Source of the DNA: Ancylobacter aquaticus
GTDB taxonomy: Bacteria > Pseudomonadota > Alphaproteobacteria > Rhizobiales > Xanthobacteraceae
Assembly (NCBI RefSeq): GCF_004339465.1
Contig: NZ_SMFY01000001.1
Coordinates: 1,674,001-1,738,000 of the forward strand
Reading direction: 5' to 3'
DNA length: 64,000 bases
Part shown: one piece after another, positions 27,022-38,459 of the stretch
Layout: each line of letters begins with the position of its first letter
How positions within the stretch are numbered: position 1 is the first letter of the stretch
Position numbers and translations under genes: made by a program
The notes under the pieces: model-generated
What the model saw: only the letters and a program-made list of their open reading frames with translations
Told to the model about the DNA's origin: nothing
The model's database searches: none

Positions 27022-27987
27022 TTACTGCGCGAGGCCGATGTCCTGCAGGATGGTCTTGGTGGCGGCGATATCCTTGGCCAGCTGGGCGTCGAAGGCTTCG
27101 CCGGAGAGGTAGGTATTGGCCCAGCCCTTCTGCGCCAGCATGTCGGTCCACGCCTTGGACTTCACCATCTTCTCGATGGTCTGGCTCAGCTCCTGCTTCT
27201 GCTCCGGGGTGATGCCCGGGGCGGCGGCAATCATGCGCCAGTTCTGGATTTCCACGTCGACGCCGGCTTCCTTGAAAGTCGGCACGTCGGGGGCTTCCGG
27301 CAGGCGGGCGGCGCTCGACACGCCGAGAATGCGCAGCTTGCCGGCCTTGGCCTGCGCGTCATATTCCGAAAGGCTGGAGATGCCGACCGTGACCTTGCCG
27401 CCGAGCAGCGAGGCGAGCGATTCGCCGCCGCCCGAGAAGGCGATGTAGTTCACCTTGCGCGGGTCGACGCCGATGGCCTTGGTGAACAGCCCGGCGGTGA
27501 TGTGATCGGTACCGCCGGCCGAGCCGCCGGCCCAGGACACCTTCTGCGGGTCCGCCTTCAGCGCGGCGACCAGATCGGCCAGCGATTTGAGCGGCGAGGC
27601 GGCCGGCACGGCGATGGCTTCGTACTCGCCGGTGAGGCGGGCGATCGGCGTGACCATGGAAAGGTCGACCGGCGACTTGTTGGTGATGATGGCGCCGACC
27701 ATGACATAGCCGCCGACGATCATCACATTGGGATCGCCCTTGCTGGAGTTCACGAACTGGGCGAGGCCGATGGTGCCACCGGCGCCCGGCACGTTCAGCA
27801 CCTGCACATTACCGACCAGCTTGTCGGACTGCAGCACATGCTGGATCGAGCGCGCGGTCTGGTCCCAGCCGCCGCCGGGCGCCGCCGGGGCGACGATCTT
27901 GAGCTCGTTGATTTCGGCATAGGCGGCGCCAAAAGGTGCGGCGGCGACGGCGGCGGCGAGCAGCGCCCCGCTGAACAGATGCTTCAT
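27022..27987 (-). CDS. tctC: Tripartite tricarboxylate transporter periplasmic binding protein TctC
   Basis: A 321-residue Bug/TctC-type binding protein with a signal peptide ([20 protein letters not shown], cleavage after AYA). Signatures are [38 protein letters not shown], and [19 protein letters not shown]. The start is clear: TTGGAGG lies just before the ATG at 27987, although the frame is open upstream. It heads the tctCBA operon, divergent from gor across 239 bp. The acidic ligand cannot be deduced; no citrate-type two-component system is adjacent. Confidence 0.95.
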
Positions 27988-28113
27988 GGTTTCCTCCAAG
28001 AGATAGCGACGGCACGTTCGACGCTGGCCGCCGCTTGGCACGCGGTGAGCGAAGCTAAGGCCGCAGGGGGCCCGCTGTCGAGTTCGCCGGAAGGATGAGC
28101 TTTGCGGTTGCCG

Positions 28114-28149
28114 GGATTCGCAAACCGGATTCGCAAACGGGATTCGCAC
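28114..28149 (+). repeat. Three tandem 13-bp repeats upstream of gor
   Basis: GGATTCGCAAAC occurs at 28114-28125 and 28127-28138, and in shortened form (GGATTCGCAC) at 28140-28149, giving an exact 13-bp period. TTTGCG at 28101-28106 is the reverse complement of the CGCAAA inside the first unit, making an inverted repeat as well. The array lies 78-113 bp before the gor start and about 127 bp before tctC, so it may be a regulatory array for either. Confidence 0.65.
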
Positions 28150-28226
28150 GTCAGCCATGCGGGCGCTTGACGGGCGCGTCTCGCAGGGCGACATGCGAGG
28201 CACAAGCGCAGCGCGGAGAGTTTCAC

Positions 28227-29633
28227 ATGGACCAGTTCGACGTCGACCTGTTCGTCATCGGCGGCGGCTCGGGGGGCGTACGCGCCGCCCGCATCGCTTC
28301 GGGCCATGGGGCAAAGGTGATGCTCGCCGAGGAATACCGGCTTGGCGGCACCTGCGTCATTCGCGGCTGCGTGCCCAAGAAGCTGTTCGTCTACGCCGCC
28401 CGCTTTGCCCATGAGTTCGAGGACGCCGCCGGCTTCGGCTGGAGCGTGGAGGGCGCGCGTTTCGACTGGGGAACGCTGGTCGCCAACAAGGACAAGGAAA
28501 TCGCCCGGCTGGAAGGCGCCTATCGCGCCAATCTCACGCGCGCCGGCGTCGAGATCGTTGCTCAGCGCGCGTCGATCGAGGGGCCGCACGCGGTGCGCCT
28601 CGCCGACGGCACGGCGGTGACGGCGCGCACCATCCTCATCGCCACCGGCGGCCGGCCCAATCGCGGGCTCGACTTCCCCGGCTGCGAGCTCGGCATCTCC
28701 TCGAACGAGATCTTCCATCTCGAACGCTTCCCCGCCCGCATCCTCATCCAGGGCGCCGGCTATATCGCGCTCGAATTCGCCAGCCTGCTGGCGGGGCTCG
28801 GGGCGAAGGTCACGGTCATCCACCGCGGCGACAGGCTGCTGCGCGGCTTCGACGAGGATATCCGTGCCCGCATTGTCGACGAGATGGCGCAGAACGGGGT
28901 GGAGTTCGCCTTCAACGTCACCATCGAGGGCATCTATCAGGAAGCCAGCGAAAAGCGCGTGCGCCTGAATGACGGGCGCGACCTGTTCGCGGACGAGGTA
29001 ATGCTCGCCATTGGCCGGGTGCCGAACACGGTAGGGCTCGGCCTCGATACGGTGGAAGTGCATCTCGACGAGGCCGGCGCCATCGCGGTGGACGCGCACG
29101 CGCGCACCAACATCCCCTCCATCTACGCGGTGGGCGATGTGACCAACCGGGTGAACCTGACCCCCGTCGCCATCCGCGAGGGCCATGCTTTCGCCGACAC
29201 CCTGTTCGGCAAGCATCCCTGGCAGGTGAGCTATGACAACATCCCGACCGCCGTGTTCACCGAGCCGGAAATCGGCACGGTGGGGATGAGCGAGCAGGAG
29301 GCGCGGGCGCAGGGCTGGCGGCTCGACATCTATCAGACCGATTTCCGCCCGCTGAAGGCGACGCTCTCGGGCCGCACCTCGCGCACCTTCATGAAGATCG
29401 TGGTGGACCAGGCCGACGACCGGGTGCTCGGCGTCCACCTCATCGGCGAGGGCTCGGGCGAGATGGTGCAGATGGCGGCGATCGCGATGAATGTCGGCGC
29501 CACCAAGGCCGATTTCGACCGCACCATGGCGCTGCACCCCTCCAGCGCCGAAGAGCTGGTGACGCTGCGTTCCCGGCACACCACCAGCGACCCGCTGCCG
29601 GAAGCCTCTGCCGAGGCGACGCCGGCGCTGTAG
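28227..29633 (+). CDS. gor: Glutathione-disulfide reductase
   Basis: A 468-residue flavoprotein reducing glutathione disulfide with NADPH. The FAD-binding GGGSGGVRAARIA opens the protein; the redox-active disulfide is Cys43/Cys48 in GGTCVIRGCVPKK; the NADPH domain has GAGYIALEFASLLAGLGAKV followed by HRGDRLLRGFDED; and the C-terminal HPSSAEE supplies the catalytic His. KxLFVYAARFAHEFEDAAG resembles the plant/alphaproteobacterial branch. The ATG at 28227 follows GGAGAG, although the frame is open upstream through the repeat array. It is divergent from tctCBA, which is probably unrelated. Confidence 0.96.
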   Translation: MDQFDVDLFVIGGGSGGVRAARIASGHGAKVMLAEEYRLGGTCVIRGCVPKKLFVYAARFAHEFEDAAGFGWSVEGARFDWGTLVANKDKEIARLEGAYRANLTRAGVEIVAQRASIEGPHAVRLADGTAVTARTILIATGGRPNRGLDFPGCELGISSNEIFHLERFPARILIQGAGYIALEFASLLAGLGAKVTVIHRGDRLLRGFDEDIRARIVDEMAQNGVEFAFNVTIEGIYQEASEKRVRLNDGRDLFADEVMLAIGRVPNTVGLGLDTVEVHLDEAGAIAVDAHARTNIPSIYAVGDVTNRVNLTPVAIREGHAFADTLFGKHPWQVSYDNIPTAVFTEPEIGTVGMSEQEARAQGWRLDIYQTDFRPLKATLSGRTSRTFMKIVVDQADDRVLGVHLIGEGSGEMVQMAAIAMNVGATKADFDRTMALHPSSAEELVTLRSRHTTSDPLPEASAEATPAL

Positions 29634-29771
29634 TCTGCAATAGGGGCAGGGCAGCGCTGCAATCACGCACCGCTGCGCGCCTCTGGTCTTGCCGGGATGC
29701 TTGGGTGTATAAGGCCCGCCTTTCCGCCGGGGAGAAGCCCTGGCGACGTGTTGAGCTTGTTGGAGGCCGTC

Positions 29772-31157
29772 ATGTCTGAACGCTGGACGCCGGATAGCTG
29801 GAGGGCCTTGCCCGTTCAGCAGGTGCCGGAATATCCGGACGCCGCAGCTCTGGCTGCGGTGGAGCGTCAGCTGGCCACGTTTCCGCCGCTGGTTTTCGCC
29901 GGTGAGGCGCGCCGTCTGAAGCGCGAGCTGGCCAAGGTGGCGAATGGCGAGGCCTTCCTGCTGCAGGGCGGCGATTGCGCCGAGAGCTTCGCCGAGCATT
30001 CGGCCGACAACATTCGCGATTTCTTCCGCGTCTTCCTGCAGATGTCGGTGGTGCTGACCTATGCCGGGGCCTCGCCGGTGGTGAAGGTCGGGCGCATTGC
30101 CGGCCAGTTCGCCAAGCCGCGCTCGGCGCCGATGGAGACCGTGGACGGGGTGGAACTGCCCTCCTATCGCGGCGACATCGTCAACGACATCGAGTTCACG
30201 CCGGAATCGCGCATTCCCGATCCGCGCCGCCAGATCGAGGCCTACCGCCAGTCGGCGGCGACGCTGAACCTTCTGCGCGCCTTCGCCAATGGCGGCTATG
30301 CCAGCCTTGGCAACGCGCATCAGTGGATGCTCGGCTTCATCAAGGACAGCCCGCAGTCCGGCCGCTACCAGGCGCTGGCGGACCGCATCACCGAGGCGCT
30401 CGACTTCATGCGCGCCATCGGCCTCGATGCGGAAAACCACCCGGAGATGCGCTCGACCGAGTTCTTCACCTCGCATGAGGCGCTGCTGCTCGGCTTCGAG
30501 CAGGCGCTGACGCGGGTGGATTCGACCACGGGCGACTGGTACGCGACCTCCGGCCACATGATCTGGATCGGCGACCGCACCCGCCAGGCGGACCACGCGC
30601 ATATGGAATATTGCCGTGGCGTGAAGAACCCGCTTGGCCTGAAGTGCGGCCCGTCGCTGAAGCCGGACGACCTGCTGCGCCTCATCGACACGCTGAACCC
30701 GCAGAACGAGGCCGGCCGCCTCACCCTGATCGCCCGCTTCGGCGCCGACAAGGTGGGCGACCATCTGCCGGCGCTGGTCCGGGCGGTGAAGCGCGAGGGC
30801 CGCACGGTGGTGTGGTCGTGCGACCCCATGCACGGCAACACCATCAAGGCGGCGTCGGGCTACAAGACCCGCCCGTTCGACCAGATCCTCAAGGAGGTGA
30901 AGGACTTCTTCGCCGTCCATGCGGCCGAGGGCACCTATGCCGGCGGCGTGCATCTGGAGATGACCGGCAAGAACGTCACGGAGTGCACCGGCGGCGCCCG
31001 CGCCATCACCGATGCCGACCTCAAGGACCGCTACCACACCTATTGCGACCCGCGCCTCAACGCCGAGCAGGCCATCGAGATGGCCTTCCTCGTCGCCGAA
31101 CTGCTCAAGCAGGAGCGCTCGGGCCGGGTGCGCCCGGTGATCGAAGCCGCCGAGTGA
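29772..31157 (+). CDS. Class II 3-deoxy-7-phosphoheptulonate synthase (DAHP synthase)
   Basis: A 461-residue plant-type (class II) DAHP synthase, the entry step of the shikimate pathway, joining PEP and erythrose 4-phosphate. Diagnostic stretches are [64 protein letters not shown], and [19 protein letters not shown], which include the metal-binding Cys, His, Glu and Asp residues. The ATG at 29772 follows TGGAGG at 5 bases. It lies 138 bp after gor. A terminator hairpin follows within the gap to the next gene, so it is probably a single-gene unit. Confidence 0.97.
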
Positions 31158-31211
31158 GGCGCATACCGGCTGCGGCCCTGACGGGCCGGGCCAGTGCCGG
31201 ATGGAATGGAC

Positions 31212-31240
31212 ACACCGCGGCCCCCGGGTCGCGGTGTTTT
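31212..31240 (+). terminator. Rho-independent terminator after DAHP synthase
   Basis: Perfect 8-bp arms ACACCGCG (31212-31219) and CGCGGTGT (31230-31237) enclose a 10-base loop and are followed by TTTT. It ends 15 bp before the GTG of the next gene, which has its own AGGAGG ribosome site. Confidence 0.85.
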
Positions 31241-31254
31241 CATAGGAGGCGCGG

Positions 31255-32040
31255 GTGACACAGCTTGAGACCGGACGTCATGTCGTCGTCGAAAGCGAGA
31301 ATGTGCGCGTGGTCCGCACCGACGGCACCCGCACGGATGTCGTGTTCGTCACCTTCGAGCCGCATGTGCTCGACCGGAATCCGCAGCGGCAGGCCTTCGC
31401 CGAGAAGTTCCTCCGCGACAACGGTTTCACGGCCTACCACTTCTTCGCCAACGACAATTTCTGGTTCCAGTACCCCGAAATGGAGGACGTGCTGGCGAAG
31501 GTACGGGCCAACATCGCCCCGGGGGTCGAGGTGGTCGCCTATGCCGTGAGCATGGGGGCCTATGCCGCCATCCGCTTCGCCGGCCGGCTCGGCGTCTCCC
31601 GCATCCTCGCCTTCTCGCCGCAATACAGCATCGACCCCAAGGTGGTGCCGTGGGACCGGCGGTGGGACGGGCTGTTCGACCGCCCGCGCCAGGTCCTGTG
31701 GGAACACCTGATGGTGCCGCGCGGCGTGCCGGTCTACCTGTTCTACGACCCGCACAACCGCGACCGCCGGCATGTCCGGCTCTATGAGCGGGTGGCCGAT
31801 GTGGTGCGCGTGCGCGTGCCTTATGCCGGCCATGGCTCGATCACCGTCCTGATGCAGTGCGGACTGCTGGGAAAGGCGGTGCTCGATGTCGGCGAGAACC
31901 GCTTCGACGCCGCCGCCTTCGCGCGGGAGCTGGCCTCCCGGCTCGACGCCTCGCCCTTCTACCGCGACAAGCGCGCGCGCAAACGCAGCCGGCTGTTCCG
32001 ACGGATCATCGCCGACATCGTCGATCGCTTCCGCCTCTAG
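31255..32040 (+). CDS. Uncharacterised alpha/beta-hydrolase-fold protein (tandem copy 1)
   Basis: A 261-residue soluble protein with no signal peptide. The start is a GTG five bases after a perfect AGGAGG. The fold looks like an alpha/beta hydrolase: the nucleophile elbow is AYAVSMGAYAA (Ser99), a likely acid is in FYDPHNRDRRH (Asp165 or Asp170), and a likely catalytic His is in YAGHGSI (His193). ILAFSPQYSID is shared word for word in part with the following paralogue. The C-terminal 25 residues are strongly basic (KRARKRSRLFRR). I do not recognise a named family. It may act on acylated glycans, given the RgpF-type gene 2.6 kb downstream, but that is speculation. Confidence 0.78.
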   Translation: MTQLETGRHVVVESENVRVVRTDGTRTDVVFVTFEPHVLDRNPQRQAFAEKFLRDNGFTAYHFFANDNFWFQYPEMEDVLAKVRANIAPGVEVVAYAVSMGAYAAIRFAGRLGVSRILAFSPQYSIDPKVVPWDRRWDGLFDRPRQVLWEHLMVPRGVPVYLFYDPHNRDRRHVRLYERVADVVRVRVPYAGHGSITVLMQCGLLGKAVLDVGENRFDAAAFARELASRLDASPFYRDKRARKRSRLFRRIIADIVDRFRL

Positions 32041-32185
32041 AGCACGCGCCGCGCACGCGACCCACCGGCCACATCCGGCAGCAATCGCGCAATCCTCGGA
32101 AATTGTGATTGTCCGCTGACGACGCCTCTGGCTAGTTTGCCCTTCGCAAGAGAGGTCGCCGGGAGGCGGCCAGCGGGGCAGGTGC

Positions 32186-33004
32186 GTGCGTCAGGTCATC
32201 TTCGAGAGCGAGAACCTAACGGTCGTCAAGGTTCCGGGCCCCTGCACGGATACGGTCTTCGTGACCTTCGAATCGATGCGGGCGGACTGGCCGGAAGGCC
32301 GCAAGGGCTTCGGCGAGGACTTCTTCGCCAAGCGCGGGCGCACCGCCTACCATTTCATGCCGTCGGGAAATTGCTGGTATCAATACCGGGAAATGCCCGA
32401 GGCGCTGGCCCGCGTGCGCGCCGACATTGCCGAGGGTGCGCGCGTCATCACCTATGGCATGAGCATGGGCGGCTATGCCGCCTACCGCTTCTCCGAGCCG
32501 CTGGGCGCTGACGCGGTGATCGCCTTCTCGCCGCAATACAGCATCGACCGCTGGCGCGTGTGGTGGGAGCGGCGCTGGGGCTCGCAAAGCCGCGCGGTGA
32601 TGTGGGACCGCCAGAGGCCGAGCGAGGGCGCGGTCAAACACATCTTCTACGATCCGCTGAACCTGGACCGCCGCCATATCCGCGCGCTGCGGCGCGAGGC
32701 GCCGCTCGATCTGGTGCGGATCTATTTCAGCGGCCACGCGTCCATCGCCTATGTCCAGGAATGCGGCCTGCTGGACAGTGCGGTGCTCGACATCGCCGAG
32801 GGCCGGTTCGACGCGGCGCAGTTCGAGCAGCGGATCTGGCGCCGCCGGCTGGCCTCGGCGACCTATGCCAAGATAAGGCAGCGCAAGCGCACGGGCCTGT
32901 TCCGCCGCCTGCGCTATCTCCTCATCGAGCACGTTCTCGAACGCCGGCTCGGCACGGCCGGCGCGCCCGACGCGGCAGGGCTCACGCCCGACCGCGCCGG
33001 CTGA
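32186..33004 (+). CDS. Uncharacterised alpha/beta-hydrolase-fold protein (tandem copy 2)
   Basis: A 272-residue paralogue of the preceding gene, moderately diverged. The elbow is TYGMSMGGYAAYRF (Ser93), the acid loop is FYDPLNLDRRH (Asp156 or Asp161), and the His is in FSGHASI (His184). IAFSPQYSID and ECGLLDSAVLDI align with copy 1. A basic segment (KIRQRKRTGLFRR) and about 30 extra C-terminal residues follow. It starts with a GTG at 32186, preceded by GGCAGG. A 145-bp gap separates the copies. It ends tail to tail with an oxidoreductase gene at a hairpin containing the stop codons. The true substrate is unknown. Confidence 0.78.
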   Translation: MRQVIFESENLTVVKVPGPCTDTVFVTFESMRADWPEGRKGFGEDFFAKRGRTAYHFMPSGNCWYQYREMPEALARVRADIAEGARVITYGMSMGGYAAYRFSEPLGADAVIAFSPQYSIDRWRVWWERRWGSQSRAVMWDRQRPSEGAVKHIFYDPLNLDRRHIRALRREAPLDLVRIYFSGHASIAYVQECGLLDSAVLDIAEGRFDAAQFEQRIWRRRLASATYAKIRQRKRTGLFRRLRYLLIEHVLERRLGTAGAPDAAGLTPDRAG

Positions 33005-33038
33005 CGCCCGTCCCCCCGCGCGCGGGGCAGCGCGTCAG
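33001..33038. terminator. Nested inverted repeat spanning both stop codons of convergent genes
   Basis: Outer 7-bp arms CTGACGC (33001-33007) and GCGTCAG (33032-33038) contain the two facing TGA stops. Inside is the perfect palindrome CCCCGCGCGCGGGG (33014-33027). There is no T-run, but such a symmetrical structure between convergent genes is probably a bidirectional terminator or mRNA 3'-end stabiliser. Confidence 0.55.
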
Positions 33039-34048
33039 TTCCAGCCTTCCAGCACGATCTTGCCGATGGACCGCCCGCTCTCGACCTGTGCGTGCGCGCG
33101 CCTGAGATTGACCGCGTTGATGGGGCCGAAATTCTCCCCCAGCGTGGTGCGCAGCGTACCGGCATCGACGAGGTGGGCGACCTCCTCCAGAATCTCGTGC
33201 TGGCGGATCATGTCCGGGGTCTGGAACAGCGAGCGGGTGAACATCAGCTCCCAGTGCAGCGACAGGCTCTTGCCTTTGAGCGGCAGCGCGTCAAGCGTCG
33301 CCGGGTCATCGATGATGGCAATACGGCCCTGAGGCTTCGCGCCCTTGATGATCTCCGCCCAATGCTTGTCGGTGTTGGTGAGGGTGTAGGTGTAGTCCAC
33401 AAGCCCGAGTCCGGCGGCTTCGAGCTCGGCCGCGAGCGGCCGGGAATGGTCGATGACCGCATGGGCGCCGAGGCCCTCCACCCAGGCGCGGCTCTCGGGA
33501 CGCGACGCGGTGCCGATGACCGTGAGCTTGGTGAGCTGGCGGGCGAACTGCACGGCGAGCGAGCCGACGCCGCCAGCCGCGCCGATAACCAGTAGGCTGG
33601 TGGCTTCGCCGCCGTTCATCGGCACCTGGAGCCGGTCGAACAGCCCCTCCCACGCGGTAAGCGAGGTGAGCGGCAGGGCGGCAGCTTCCGCGAAGCCTAG
33701 GGAGGAGGGCTTGTGGCCGACGATGCGCTCGTCGACGAGGTGCAGCTCCGCGTTGGTGCCGGGGCGGTTGAGGTCGCCAGCGTAGAACACCTCGTCGCCA
33801 ACCTTGAACAGGGTAACTTCGGCACCGACCGCCTCGACCACGCCGGCGGCGTCCCAGCCGAGGATGACCGGCGCGTCCTCGCTCCCGGCGCGGCGCATCC
33901 GCACCTTGGTGTCGACCGGATTGACCGAGACGGCCTTCACCCGCACCAGCAGGTCGCGCGGGCCGGGCGTGGGCGCGGCGGTTTCAAAGTCGAAGAGCGC
34001 GCGCTCTTCGGTGATGGGAAGCGACTGGATGTAGCCGATGGCCTTCAT
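33035..34048 (-). CDS. Zinc-type alcohol dehydrogenase-like (quinone reductase-like) oxidoreductase
   Basis: A 337-residue MDR-superfamily NADPH oxidoreductase of the zinc-binding-alcohol-dehydrogenase group lacking zinc ligands. The N-terminal catalytic domain has VKAVSVNPVDTKVRMR and PVILGWDAAGVVEAVG; the Rossmann domain has LLVIGAAGGVGSLAVQFAR; and RIAIIDDPATLDALPLKGKS is typical of the YogA/YhfP-like branch. It likely reduces quinones or reactive enones. GGGAG precedes the ATG at 34048. It is divergent from an HxlR regulator, a common pairing in which the regulator controls an electrophile-detoxifying reductase. Confidence 0.9.
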   Translation of the reverse strand: MKAIGYIQSLPITEERALFDFETAAPTPGPRDLLVRVKAVSVNPVDTKVRMRRAGSEDAPVILGWDAAGVVEAVGAEVTLFKVGDEVFYAGDLNRPGTNAELHLVDERIVGHKPSSLGFAEAAALPLTSLTAWEGLFDRLQVPMNGGEATSLLVIGAAGGVGSLAVQFARQLTKLTVIGTASRPESRAWVEGLGAHAVIDHSRPLAAELEAAGLGLVDYTYTLTNTDKHWAEIIKGAKPQGRIAIIDDPATLDALPLKGKSLSLHWELMFTRSLFQTPDMIRQHEILEEVAHLVDAGTLRTTLGENFGPINAVNLRRAHAQVESGRSIGKIVLEGWN

Positions 34049-34234
34049 GGCAAATCTCCCGCGCGGCACCCTCAGGCGCGCGCCTCAAGTCATTGACGAT
34101 GTGCCCCGACATGTCGCCATGCGCGCGCCAAGCGCAAGAACGCACGAGATTGTCGGCAGGTATCGAAAATGTAAGCCCCTTTCCCGGACGCGGCTGACGA
34201 CCTAAATTCGCAAGGCTTGAAGCGGAGACAGGCC

Positions 34235-34585
34235 ATGGCGAGGCGGCATCAGGATTATGCGTGCGGCGAGGGCTGCCCGGTCGAGGCGACGCTGGAGATC
34301 ATCGGCGCCAAATGGAAGGGCGGCATCGTCTATCACCTGCTCTCCGGCGAGGTGCGGTTCAGCGAACTGGGCCGGCGCATGCCCAACGTCACCGCGCGCA
34401 TTCTCGCCAAGGCGCTGCGGGAGCTGGAGGCCGATGGGGTGATCGCCCGCACGGTCTACCCGACGCTGCCCCCGCAGGTGGGCTACCGGCTGACCGAGAA
34501 CGGCGAGCGCCTGCGCCCCGCCATCCTCGAACTGCATCGCTGGGGAAGCCGGTCGCGCGCGGCCTACGACGTCGCGGCAGAGTGA
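34235..34585 (+). CDS. HxlR-family transcriptional regulator
   Basis: A 116-residue winged-helix regulator. The HxlR core is CPVEATLEIIGAKWKGGIVY, FSELGRRMPNVTARILAKAL (recognition region), and VYPTLPPQVGYRLTENGERL. Cys10 and Cys14 lie in YACGEGCPVE; a conserved N-terminal cysteine in this family often senses quinones or aldehydes. The ATG at 34235 follows GGAG; an upstream TTG at 34217 is less likely. It probably controls the divergent oxidoreductase across a 186-bp gap, in which I could not pick out a convincing operator. Confidence 0.9.
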   Translation: MARRHQDYACGEGCPVEATLEIIGAKWKGGIVYHLLSGEVRFSELGRRMPNVTARILAKALRELEADGVIARTVYPTLPPQVGYRLTENGERLRPAILELHRWGSRSRAAYDVAAE

Positions 34586-34698
34586 CAATGCACGGCGAGG
34601 CTCTGGCCTTCGCTGGCCGCCCTCATTAGAACCGCCCGGAGCGCTGCGCTTCGGCGACGCGCGCTGCACGATTATCCGCATCGGCCCGCCGGAGTGCC

Positions 34699-36699
34699 AT
34701 GACCCGTCCCGAGTCTTCCCTGCCGGAACAGGCATCGCCGGCAACCGAGAGCCCGGCTAAGGACTGCCCGGCCAAGGGCCGCCCGACAAAGCGCGCGCGC
34801 TATTTCGTGCCGAGGCAGCGCAGCCGGCTGCGGCGCTGGATAACCGCGAACACCCAGAAGACCGGGCGCCGGATTGGCCGGCTGCTTTTCGACGCCGAGG
34901 GCCACCCCCGCGCCTTCCTGCGCTCTCTTCTGTTCGATGCCTATCAGCGCCCGCGCCCCGGCCTGGAAGGCGTGATCTTCAAGGAGCCCGGCCGCCCCCG
35001 GCGCCCCTTCGCCAACTGGCTGACGGGCTCGGACGCGACGCTGCCCGCGCTGGTCGCCGGCCTGCCGTTTCCGCCGCGGTCGACGGGGCGACGTTCCGTG
35101 CTCGTGGTAATCGAGAAGAGTGCCACGTCGGCCTCGCCGCTGCTGCGGCTGCTCGCCCGCGATTACGCGGTGGTCCTGCTGGTGCTCGACGGCGAAAGGG
35201 GCGCCGACGAGGCTCTGGCTGCAGACGGGGTCGCTCTTGTGCCGGTCGATGTTGCCCGTGCGCGTGCCCCGCGCGCCGTGCTGGTCGACGCGCTGGCCTT
35301 TCGCGCCCGCGAGGACCGGCCGCTCTTCGCGATCACCGTGGGGCTGGCGACCATCGACGCGGCCGACGCGCTGGAGCAGCGCAACATTCCCGTCGTCGCG
35401 GTGTTCGGCGAGGCGGATGCCGATCCGGCGCGGCATGAGACGCTGGGCCCGGCGATGGAACTGGCGCTGGAGCGGGCCAGTGCCCTGGTTTTCCCCACGC
35501 CCGCCGCGCGCGAGGCGGCGCTGGTGGCCATGCCGCGCTTTGCCGCGCGTCGCCGGCTGGCGGCGGCCGAGGCGCCGCTGGAGGCGGGCGCGGCGGCGGT
35601 GCTCGCCATCGGTCGCGAGATCGGCGAGGAACTGGACTGTGAGCTTTCCCTCGTGCTGGCCACCGAGCCGGAGCGGCTGGAAATACTCGATATCGCGCGC
35701 GAGAATGACCCGCCCGGCGCGTTCACCGTGGCGCAGAAGCTGGAGCGCCTGATCGCCGACTGGCGGCGCAAGGCGCTGTTGAAGCGCCACCCCAACCGGC
35801 CGCCGCTGCGTCGGCCCTATTCCGGCTTTCACCCGCTGATCTATGCCGAGCACCACCCGGTCGCCTGCTTCGACCAGCGGCGCTACCCGCTCTCGCACTG
35901 GATCGAGAAGGGACGTCCGCCGGGGCCGTGGTCGATGCCGGTGTTCGGCCCGCTGCCGGGACCGCGTGCGAGCCGGCTGAGAAGCGCGCTGCACGGCCAC
36001 TTCTTTTATCCGGACCTGCTGCCGGAACTGCTGGAGCGCCTGAACGTCAATGCCTCGCGCCCCGACCTTTTCCTGACGACGGACACGCCGGCCAAGGCGG
36101 ATGAACTCCGGGCGATGACGGCCAGCTACCCCAGCGCCGTGCAGATCGATGTCGTGCCCAATCTCGGCCGCGACATCGGCCCGTTCCTGACCGGGCTGCG
36201 CGATGCGTTGACCGGGGGCGGCTATGACGTGTTCTTCCACGTGCACGGAAAGAAGACCAAGGGCCGGCGTCGTGCCATTGGCGATCCCTGGCGTCATTTC
36301 CTGTGGGAGAACCTGATCGGCGGGACGCATCCCATGCTCGATACCGTGCTGGCCCGTTTGGAAGTCAGCCCCGAGGTCGGCCTGATCCATCCGGAGGACT
36401 CGCATCTGGTCAATTGGGCGCGCAATGACCGTATCGTGCAGGAACTGCGCGAGGACCTGGAATTGACCGAGCCACTCGGCGCCTATGTCGATTTTCCCGT
36501 CGGCAACATGTTCGCCATTCGTCCGGCGGCGATGCGGTCCTATCTGGCGCTCGACCTGAGCTGGGAGGATTACCCGCCCGAGCCGATCCCGGACGATGGC
36601 ACCCTCATGCACGGGCTGGAGCGGTTGCTGCCCATGGCCGTGCGGCAGGCGGGCTTCAGCACCATCGCCGTGCGGGTGCCCGGCACCGACTGGGACTGA
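34699..36699 (+). CDS. RgpF-type (rhamnan synthesis protein F) glycan protein
   Basis: A 666-residue cytoplasmic protein. The C-terminal 240 residues match the rhamnan-synthesis F domain: LFLTTDTPAKADELRAM, VVPNLGRDIGPFLTGLRDAL, YDVFFHVHGKKTKGRRRAIG, VGLIHPEDSHLVNWARN, and FPVGNMFAIRPAAM. The middle (about 130-310) reads like a Rossmann-type glycosyltransferase half. PLIYAEHHPVACFDQRRYPLSHWIEKGRPPG-type repeats occur just before the RgpF domain; the segment is split here only for description. The first 45 residues are basic. Such proteins take part in O-antigen or rhamnan chain building, but no sugar-nucleotide or polymerase genes are near, so its glycan is unknown. Confidence 0.85.
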   Translation: MTRPESSLPEQASPATESPAKDCPAKGRPTKRARYFVPRQRSRLRRWITANTQKTGRRIGRLLFDAEGHPRAFLRSLLFDAYQRPRPGLEGVIFKEPGRPRRPFANWLTGSDATLPALVAGLPFPPRSTGRRSVLVVIEKSATSASPLLRLLARDYAVVLLVLDGERGADEALAADGVALVPVDVARARAPRAVLVDALAFRAREDRPLFAITVGLATIDAADALEQRNIPVVAVFGEADADPARHETLGPAMELALERASALVFPTPAAREAALVAMPRFAARRRLAAAEAPLEAGAAAVLAIGREIGEELDCELSLVLATEPERLEILDIARENDPPGAFTVAQKLERLIADWRRKALLKRHPNRPPLRRPYSGFHPLIYAEHHPVACFDQRRYPLSHWIEKGRPPGPWSMPVFGPLPGPRASRLRSALHGHFFYPDLLPELLERLNVNASRPDLFLTTDTPAKADELRAMTASYPSAVQIDVVPNLGRDIGPFLTGLRDALTGGGYDVFFHVHGKKTKGRRRAIGDPWRHFLWENLIGGTHPMLDTVLARLEVSPEVGLIHPEDSHLVNWARNDRIVQELREDLELTEPLGAYVDFPVGNMFAIRPAAMRSYLALDLSWEDYPPEPIPDDGTLMHGLERLLPMAVRQAGFSTIAVRVPGTDWD

Positions 36700-36755
36700 G
36701 GTTCGCAGGCGCGGCGGCGATTGCCGGCGCCGGAGGGGAAGGCTAAACGACGCTC

Positions 36756-38459
36756 ATGTCCAGCATGTCGCCATCGACCGCATCCAACGCGCAAGCGCCC
36801 GCCGACCAGATCCTCATCGCCTTCGCCCAGCTCAACCCGGTGGTCGGCGACGTCGCCGGCAATGTGCGGCGGGTGCGCGAGGCACGGGCGCTGGCGGGCG
36901 AGCAGGGCGCGGATCTCGTCGTCTTCACCGAGCTGTTCCTCTCCGGCTATCCCCCCGAGGACCTGGTGCTGAAGCCCGCCTTTCAGGCGGCATGCCGGCA
37001 GGCGGTGGAGGAACTGGCGCTTGAGACCGCCGATGGCGGACCCGCGCTGCTCCTCGGCGCGCCGTGGGTGGAGGACGGCAAGCTCTACAACGCCGCGCTG
37101 CTGCTCGACGCCGGCAGGGTGGCGGGCAGCCGTTTCAAGGTGGACCTGCCCAATTACGGCGTGTTCGACGAGCGGCGCGTCTTCTCCGCCGGCCCGATGC
37201 CGGGCCCGATGGCGTTTCGCGGCGTGCGGCTCGGCGTTCCCGTGTGCGAGGACATCTGGTCGCCGGATGTGATCGAGTGCCTGATGGAGACCGGGGCGGA
37301 GATCCTGCTTATCCCCAATGGCTCGCCCTATCGCCGGGGCGTCCATGACGAGCGGCTGAACGTGGCGGTGGCCCGCGTGGTCGAAAGCGGACTGCCGCTC
37401 GCCTATGTGAACCAGGTCGGCGGGCAGGACGAGCTGGTGTTCGACGGCGGCTCCTTTGTGCTCAATGCCGACCGTTCGCTCGCGGTGCAACTGCCGAACT
37501 TCCAGGAGCGCTTGCGCCTCACCCGCTGGGAGCGCTGGGCCGATGGCTGGCGCTGCGAGGAGGGTACGCGGGCGCCGCTGCTGGCGGGCGACGAGGCGGA
37601 CTATGCCGCCTGCGTTCTCGGCCTGCGCGACTATGTCGAGAAGAACGGCTTTCCCGGCGTGGTGCTGGGCCTTTCCGGCGGCATCGATTCCGCCCTTGTC
37701 GCCGCCATGGCGGTGGACGCGCTGGGGCCGGCGCGGGTCCATTGCGTGATGCTGCCCTATCGCTACACCTCGGACGAGTCGCTCTCCGACGCCGCCGCCG
37801 TCGCTCAGGCGCTGGGCGTGCGCTACGACATCCTGCCCATCGCGCAGGGGGTCGAGGCGCTGGAGCAGGTGCTGGCGCCGCTGTTCGAGGGTCGGGCCCG
37901 CGATGTGAGCGAAGAGAACCTGCAGTCGCGGGTGCGCGGCACGCTGCTGATGGCGCTCTCCAACAAGTTCGGCGCCATGGTCGTGACAACCGGCAACAAG
38001 TCGGAGATGGCCACCGGCTATGCCACGCTCTATGGCGACATGAATGGCGGCTTCAATCCGCTGAAGGACCTCTACAAGACGCAGGTGTTCCGGCTGAGCG
38101 CGCTGCGCAATCGCTGGAAGCCGGCTGGGTCGCTGGGACCGGACGGCGCGGTGATCCCCGAGAACATCATCACCAAGCCGCCGACCGCCGAGCTGCGCGA
38201 AAACCAGACCGACCAGGACAGCCTGCCGCCCTATGAGGTGCTGGATGCCATCCTTGAACGTCTTGTGGAGCGCGAACTTCCCGTCACCGACATCGTGGCG
38301 GAAGGCTTCGAGCCGGCGCTGGTGGCGCGGGTGGAACGGCTGCTGAACCTCGCGGAATACAAGCGACGGCAGGCCGCGCCGGGGGTGAAGGCCACGACCC
38401 GTCAGTTCGGCCGCGAACGGCGCTATCCCATCACCAACAGGTTCCGCGAGGGGGCGTAG
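36756..38459 (+). CDS. nadE: Glutamine-dependent NAD+ synthetase
   Basis: A 567-residue two-domain enzyme converting deamido-NAD to NAD with glutamine as nitrogen donor. The N-terminal nitrilase-type glutaminase has Glu59 (VVFTELFLSGYP), Lys128 (RFKVDLPNYGVFDE) and Cys164 (VPVCEDIW). The C-terminal synthetase has the PP-loop LGLSGGIDSALVAAMA (SGGIDS at 307-312), TGNKSEMATGYATLYGD and the C-terminal basic tail ITNRFREGA. Length and order are standard. It ends 6 bp from a convergent transporter gene. Confidence 0.97.
   Translation: MSSMSPSTASNAQAPADQILIAFAQLNPVVGDVAGNVRRVREARALAGEQGADLVVFTELFLSGYPPEDLVLKPAFQAACRQAVEELALETADGGPALLLGAPWVEDGKLYNAALLLDAGRVAGSRFKVDLPNYGVFDERRVFSAGPMPGPMAFRGVRLGVPVCEDIWSPDVIECLMETGAEILLIPNGSPYRRGVHDERLNVAVARVVESGLPLAYVNQVGGQDELVFDGGSFVLNADRSLAVQLPNFQERLRLTRWERWADGWRCEEGTRAPLLAGDEADYAACVLGLRDYVEKNGFPGVVLGLSGGIDSALVAAMAVDALGPARVHCVMLPYRYTSDESLSDAAAVAQALGVRYDILPIAQGVEALEQVLAPLFEGRARDVSEENLQSRVRGTLLMALSNKFGAMVVTTGNKSEMATGYATLYGDMNGGFNPLKDLYKTQVFRLSALRNRWKPAGSLGPDGAVIPENIITKPPTAELRENQTDQDSLPPYEVLDAILERLVERELPVTDIVAEGFEPALVARVERLLNLAEYKRRQAAPGVKATTRQFGRERRYPITNRFREGA

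Follow-up and report, generated by a model that had tools for sequence, protein, structure and literature searches.

Twin alpha/beta-hydrolases beside an RgpF-type gene in Ancylobacter aquaticus: probable glycan O-acetyltransferases with a Gln-extended triad

Introduction

What is the function of two adjacent alpha/beta-hydrolase-like genes of Ancylobacter aquaticus that stand close to an RgpF-type gene? Both lie in a window of 64,000 nucleotides (the whole stretch of DNA that was analysed; contig NZ_SMFY01000001.1, positions 1,674,001 to 1,738,000). An earlier note, made from the sequence alone, had described them as tandem paralogues that it could not place in a named family, that might form a glycan-modifying set with the RgpF-type gene, and that might be esterases acting on acyl sugars.

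The enzyme against which these proteins are compared below is CsaC (SacC/MynC), the capsule O-acetyltransferase of Neisseria meningitidis serogroup A (PDB 6yuo, 6yuq, 6yus, 6yuv; PMC7501274). Its triad (Ser114/Asp198/His228) is extended by His201 and Gln138, the latter positioned by Tyr79, and the Q138A substitution costs 97% of the activity (PMC7501274). The same paper presents the Gln as an element that no other solved alpha/beta hydrolase has, although several uncharacterised bacterial proteins conserve it (PMC7501274).

The twin genes and their surroundings

The features of the locus, with the codons of the main active-site residues of ABH-1, are as follows:

29697..31157, plus strand: class-II DAHP synthase, conserved left flank of the island, outside the function
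31255..32040, plus strand: ABH-1, 261 aa, alpha/beta-hydrolase fold, probable glycan O-acetyltransferase (S99, D170, H193, with extension Q123, H173, W70)
31549..31551, plus strand: codon of Ser99, the ABH-1 nucleophile (elbow YAVSMG)
31621..31623, plus strand: codon of Gln123 of ABH-1 (SPQ), aligned with CsaC Gln138
31762..31773, plus strand: codons of Asp170-Arg-Arg-His173 of ABH-1, aligned or spaced like CsaC Asp198/His201
32186..33004, plus strand: ABH-2, 272 aa, paralogue of ABH-1 (S93, Q117, D161, H164, H184), in a separate orthologous clade
33035..34069, minus strand: zinc-type alcohol dehydrogenase, island passenger, probably unrelated
34217..34585, plus strand: HxlR-type regulator, island passenger, probably unrelated
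34699..36699, plus strand: RgpF-domain protein (PF05045), probable glycan-synthesis partner in the same island
36756..38459, plus strand: NAD synthetase nadE, conserved right flank of the island, outside the function

Both reading frames at 31255-33004 are present as the earlier note had them, and their products are 48% identical over 244 residues (E 2e-70). ABH-1 starts with GTG, immediately preceded by AGGAGG. The nucleophile elbows read YAVSMG and YGMSMG, and the Ser and His pairs proposed before (Ser99/His193 and Ser93/His184) are exact in position. Inspection by eye likewise agrees that neither protein has a visible N-terminal signal sequence, and the tails are indeed strongly basic, with a net charge over the C-terminal 60 residues of +7 in ABH-1 and +10 in ABH-2. 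The basic C-terminal helix, partly amphipathic in ABH-1, could tether the enzymes to the inner membrane or to an acidic glycan.

Searches of Pfam and NCBIfam placed the twins outside every model, as anticipated: none scored above its cut-off, the homoserine transacetylase-like alpha/beta hydrolases included, and the best Pfam scores stayed below the curated values (Abhydrolase_6, 17.4 versus 26.3 bits; Hydrolase_4, 14 versus 27). Sequence searches of the PDB with the single twin proteins gave sub-threshold or irrelevant matches, and no further convincing family member was found elsewhere in the same genome. Upstream, a 1017-aa open frame (27984-31037, minus strand) runs antisense to the reductase and DAHP synthase genes and is almost certainly a by-product of high GC.

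Predicted fold

The AlphaFold2 model, built with 21 relatives, has the alpha/beta-hydrolase fold that had been assumed (pLDDT 93.4, pTM 0.89). The SGNH fold, as in enzymes of the OatA and PatB type, was not encountered; the model is an alpha/beta-hydrolase with a GxSxG-type elbow. When the best 1000 PDB chains found by Foldseek were ranked by VIA-align Z, the top match was Gap2/Asp2 (6oyc_B; Z 17.7, 206 residues, 2.9 A), followed by the four CsaC entries (Z 16.5-17.0) and then by other hydrolases at Z 15.2 and below. Gap2/Asp2 (PMC5578698) and CsaC (PMC7501274) are both glycan O-acetyltransferases. By Foldseek E-value, feruloyl esterases lead and CsaC holds rank 17, so that the function could not be decided from structural rank alone. 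A search of a viral structure library returned generic hydrolases only and was set aside.

Asp2/Gap2 is the GlcNAc O-acetyltransferase of the accessory Sec system and shares a Ser-Asp-His alpha/beta-hydrolase domain with the twins, but it is larger and has a second role in export (PDB 6oyc; PMC5578698). No serine-rich-repeat adhesin or accessory Sec genes were recognised beside the twins, whose neighbours in the window are the DAHP synthase, dehydrogenase, HxlR, RgpF and nadE genes. Feruloyl and acetyl esterases have the same fold, elbow and triad at a lower Z (14-15), whereas the twins carry the Gln extension ascribed to CsaC alone among solved structures (PMC7501274).

A Gln-extended active site

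In ABH-1, Gln123 of the SPQ motif stands at Ser+24, the spacing that separates Gln138 from Ser114 in CsaC. The acid residue is Asp170 (Asp161 in ABH-2); Asp165/Asp156 of the FYDP motif is equally conserved, and Asp170 was preferred because the residue reported as catalytic Asp in the K15 capsule protein falls on it in the alignment (PMC7387560). His173 (His164 in ABH-2) lies at Asp+3, as His201 does relative to Asp198 of CsaC, an equivalence drawn from spacing and not from direct alignment with CsaC. Trp70 falls on CsaC Tyr79 in a weak alignment (see below). The likeness to CsaC comprises the fold, the triad, the Gln, the Asp+3 His and, by that alignment, an aromatic residue at the Tyr79 position.

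These residues are almost invariant across 111 family domains: Ser, His193 and Asp/Glu170 are found in all 111, Gln in 110, Trp70 in 108 and His173 in 99, and 97 domains hold all six together. The Ser and His named in the earlier note are thus kept in every homologous domain considered. Gln or Glu takes the place of His173 in 12 of the 111, and His occupies that position in all 28 genes (28/28) found in the slot flanked by DAHP synthase and nadE. The control set comprised 26 further alpha/beta hydrolases encoded in this genome whose elbow could be recognised; none has Gln at S+24 (0/26), nor PQ within four residues of it. Arg136 is kept in 107 of the 111 domains but at Gln+13, against Gln+10 for Arg148 of the CsaC lid, which places the acceptor. 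The Ser-Asp and Ser-His spacings of ABH-1 are also shorter (71/94 residues, against 84/114 in CsaC), and the lid region is therefore probably shorter in the twins. Further differences from CsaC are the weak sequence similarity, Trp in place of Tyr79, the basic C-terminal helix and a position outside a capsule locus; the twins are known here from genes and a predicted structure. Taken together, their fold and active-site signature are well supported.

Sequence links to CsaC and to the K15 capsule protein

Comparison of the family profile with CsaC by hhalign, over CsaC residues 31-141, paired the nucleophile with Ser114, the Gln with Gln138 and Trp70 with Tyr79, with an E-value of 2.5e-4 for this one comparison and a probability of 43%, which is weak. 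A stronger hhalign match (E 1e-10, probability 97%) joins the family to the proposed O-acetyltransferase of the Escherichia coli K15 capsule, with the same Ser, Gln and Asp aligned, and the K15 protein in turn aligns its PQ with that of CsaC at Gln138 (phmmer, E 0.007). This predicted enzyme, ORF5 (ECP_RS15455, strain 536; PMC7387560), has the same SMGGYAA elbow, the W, NPQ at Ser+24 and the catalytic Asp. It differs from the twins in having Asp, not His, at Asp+3, an extra N-terminal region and a location in a capsule cluster. Profile searches of the PDB found esterases (E 0.0015) and Gap2 (E 0.04) and never CsaC, which is absent from the 43 PDB matches of the family profile; the CsaC link therefore rests on structure, spacing and the K15 bridge. 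Searches of the PDB by phmmer with divergent relatives gave TPR proteins or noise only and were discarded.

A large and unnamed family

The twins belong to a large, unnamed alpha/beta-hydrolase family of more than 500 loci. Of 101 related genomes subjected to a protein search, 26 contained relatives. Members of the genus Ancylobacter have one to three copies in tandem, and ABH-1 orthologues in its other genomes are 71-92% identical, which, like the invariance of Ser and His, is conservation well above chance level; among the matches listed, the closest named relatives are those of Ancylobacter rudongensis and A. vacuolatus (91-93% identity). When 84,980 species genomes were scanned with a sequence pattern, at least 524 relatives were confirmed, mostly in Proteobacteria. 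The scan pattern contained the elbow S-M-G, whose conservation figure is biased for that reason; the Asp, the His and the other active-site residues were not part of it.

In a tree of 39 domains, ABH-1 and its orthologues form one fully supported clade (100/100); a second clade holds ABH-2, and a third paralogue clade adjoins it. Since the twins fall in separate orthologous clades, their duplication predates the sampled species, and every catalytic residue has been kept in both copies in the slot genes (28/28).

Many relatives carry additional domains, namely TPR, TPR with a GDSL acylhydrolase, GT4, or GT2_4/GT92. A 1499-aa protein of a Polaromonas metagenome-assembled genome has GT4-type glycosyltransferase domains followed by the family hydrolase domain (L132:6551-11050). 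Loktanella atrilutea has three tandem family members, two of them with an N-terminal GT2_4/GT92 domain (L091:9305-14634), and a fusion to GT2_4/GT92 occurs again at L071. Two further proteins (L067:9923-11758 and L073:9698-11737) join the hydrolase domain to TPR and a GDSL/SGNH domain, placing two different Ser-His acyl enzymes in one chain. Acinetobacter genomes (L111-L135) carry a family member of 423-445 aa at one largely conserved chromosomal site, and the C-terminal part of the L111 protein is without any Pfam match.

A variable island between DAHP synthase and nadE

The flanking DAHP synthase and nadE genes are present in all 30 Ancylobacter genomes examined, and the interval between them (31158-36755 in the window) varies, holding glycosyltransferase, hydrolase, dehydrogenase/HxlR or other genes. 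It is empty in G015, where the flanks adjoin, and, judging by coordinates, in G019. Hydrolase genes accompany rgpF in 15 genomes and a GT4 gene in one (G026, where GT4 replaces rgpF); three genomes have rgpF alone, four GT4 alone and seven none of these. A glycosyltransferase-type gene is thus found in the island of all 16 genomes with a hydrolase and of 7 of the 14 without (Fisher p 0.0017, which ignores the kinship of the genomes); because the genomes are related, the association is only suggestive. In four genomes (G002, G009, G016, G024), the identity of nadE (for example L037:14950-16338 and L057:15559-16896) drops to 60-74%, and some 90 residues at the C-terminal end are missing from the match, beside a DAHP synthase of 95-98% identity; this is gene-specific replacement or truncation.

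The RgpF-type gene, which starts 1.7 kb downstream of the twins as described earlier, encodes the PF05045 domain at residues 426-652 (E 1e-42). A structure model of this protein gave weak, partly GT-B-like matches with large rmsd (UDP-GlcNAc 2-epimerases, plant C-glycosyltransferases, CapG), too weak for use. At two loci (L039, L042), about 100 bp separate the last hydrolase gene from a downstream rgpF of the same orientation, and neither the dehydrogenase gene nor the HxlR gene stands between them. The genes in the window that separate the twins from rgpF therefore look like passengers, and in other genomes the pair is found without the twins.

The locus of the twins falls short of a full capsule cluster. 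A TPR-type relative in G014 has genes for ManC, GT4, GT61 and a polysaccharide pyruvyltransferase as its neighbours. Beyond the genus, many relatives are solitary, and glycan genes top the list of neighbours with only 3-6 each among 126 neighbouring proteins. The glycan-modifying set envisaged by the earlier note is supported by the island, with a mixed picture in other bacteria. Some ABC-transporter neighbours, considered as polysaccharide exporters, turned out to serve zinc uptake and were dropped as evidence.

Proposed function

Given a CsaC-like fold and active site with a sugar-transferase gene alongside, the twins most likely acetylate a cell-surface sugar chain. In the form that we consider fairly probable, both proteins work in the cytosol as serine acyltransferases, with acetyl-CoA as the donor, and O-acetylate a glycan in whose synthesis the adjacent RgpF-type protein assists. 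The donor, the glycan acceptor, the preference for transfer over hydrolysis and the twins' division of labour are what we infer from these comparisons. The hydroxyl of Ser99 (Ser93 in ABH-2) would accept the acetyl group from acetyl-CoA, with His193 and Asp170 forming the charge relay. The acetyl-serine would be positioned by Gln123, which His173 and Trp70 would hold in place, and His193 would activate a sugar hydroxyl to attack it in place of water; by analogy with CsaC, the whole is most likely a double-displacement transfer. The lack of a visible signal peptide would fit a cytosolic donor, and the two ancient paralogues probably differ in the sugar or the position acetylated.

Against acetyl transfer stands the fact that alpha/beta-hydrolase folds are mostly hydrolases: feruloyl and acetyl esterases share the fold and triad and lead the Foldseek list, and even in CsaC the oxyanion loop is esterase-like and some hydrolysis occurs (PMC7501274). 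The twins could on these grounds be glycan de-O-acetylases or carbohydrate esterases, stripping the RgpF-dependent glycan, or precursors of it, of acyl groups. This is unlikely, as the Gln extension, required by CsaC for transfer, is kept in all but one of the family domains and in none of the ordinary alpha/beta hydrolases of the genome, and both top structural matches are transferases. Known polymer deacetylases, moreover, usually act outside the cytosol, whereas the twins have no visible signal peptide. The esterase acting on acyl sugars suggested earlier thus gives way to a glycan O-acyltransferase of the CsaC/Asp2 kind, to which the active site and the nearest folds point, transfer being likelier than ester hydrolysis.

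Acyl transfer to glycans or glycolipids might instead draw on a longer acyl-CoA, on acyl-ACP or on an amino-acyl donor, as the donor is not readable from sequence and many relatives have TPR domains that may recruit other proteins; such a replacement for acetyl-CoA is nonetheless improbable, the closest known enzymes, CsaC and Asp2, both transferring acetyl (PMC7501274, PMC5578698). The substrate of the twins might also be a small molecule or a protein with no relation to glycans, the adjacency of rgpF being a by-product of a shared insertion site between DAHP synthase and nadE. Plainly unrelated genes (dehydrogenase, HxlR and others) do occur in the island of other genomes, and the association count is confounded by common descent; yet the direct glycosyltransferase fusions in other bacteria, the replacement of rgpF by GT4 beside the hydrolase in G026 and the glycan genes adjoining the G014 relative make such a role very improbable.

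Extended from the twins to their relatives, the acetyltransferase reading becomes more tentative. It is quite possible, if somewhat short of probable, that the Gln-extended triad is the hallmark of a large and so far unrecognised superfamily of glycan acyltransferases with the alpha/beta-hydrolase fold in Proteobacteria (more than 500 loci, often with TPR, GT4, GT2 or GDSL in one chain), in which the Ancylobacter twins are paralogues of different regiospecificity acting on an RgpF-dependent glycan.

Implications

The earlier note had seen in the twins the best candidate for an undescribed function. They are uncharacterised and lie outside curated models, and to that extent the claim stands; since they have a place beside enzymes already described, the word 'undescribed' does not apply in full. 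The twins represent an enzyme family that is real and uncharacterised, and its link to CsaC-type glycan O-acetyltransferases is specific and can be tested. The authors of the CsaC study asked whether adding a Gln to the triad is a general route that turns alpha/beta-hydrolase esterases into transferases (PMC7501274). The family offers hundreds of test cases, many of them in non-pathogens and some fused to glycosyltransferases, and the question is therefore directly testable. If the acetyltransferase reading is true, a family without a curated model would gain a function, and a cytosolic route of surface-glycan acetylation would take its place beside the AT3, MBOAT/SGNH and hexapeptide systems.
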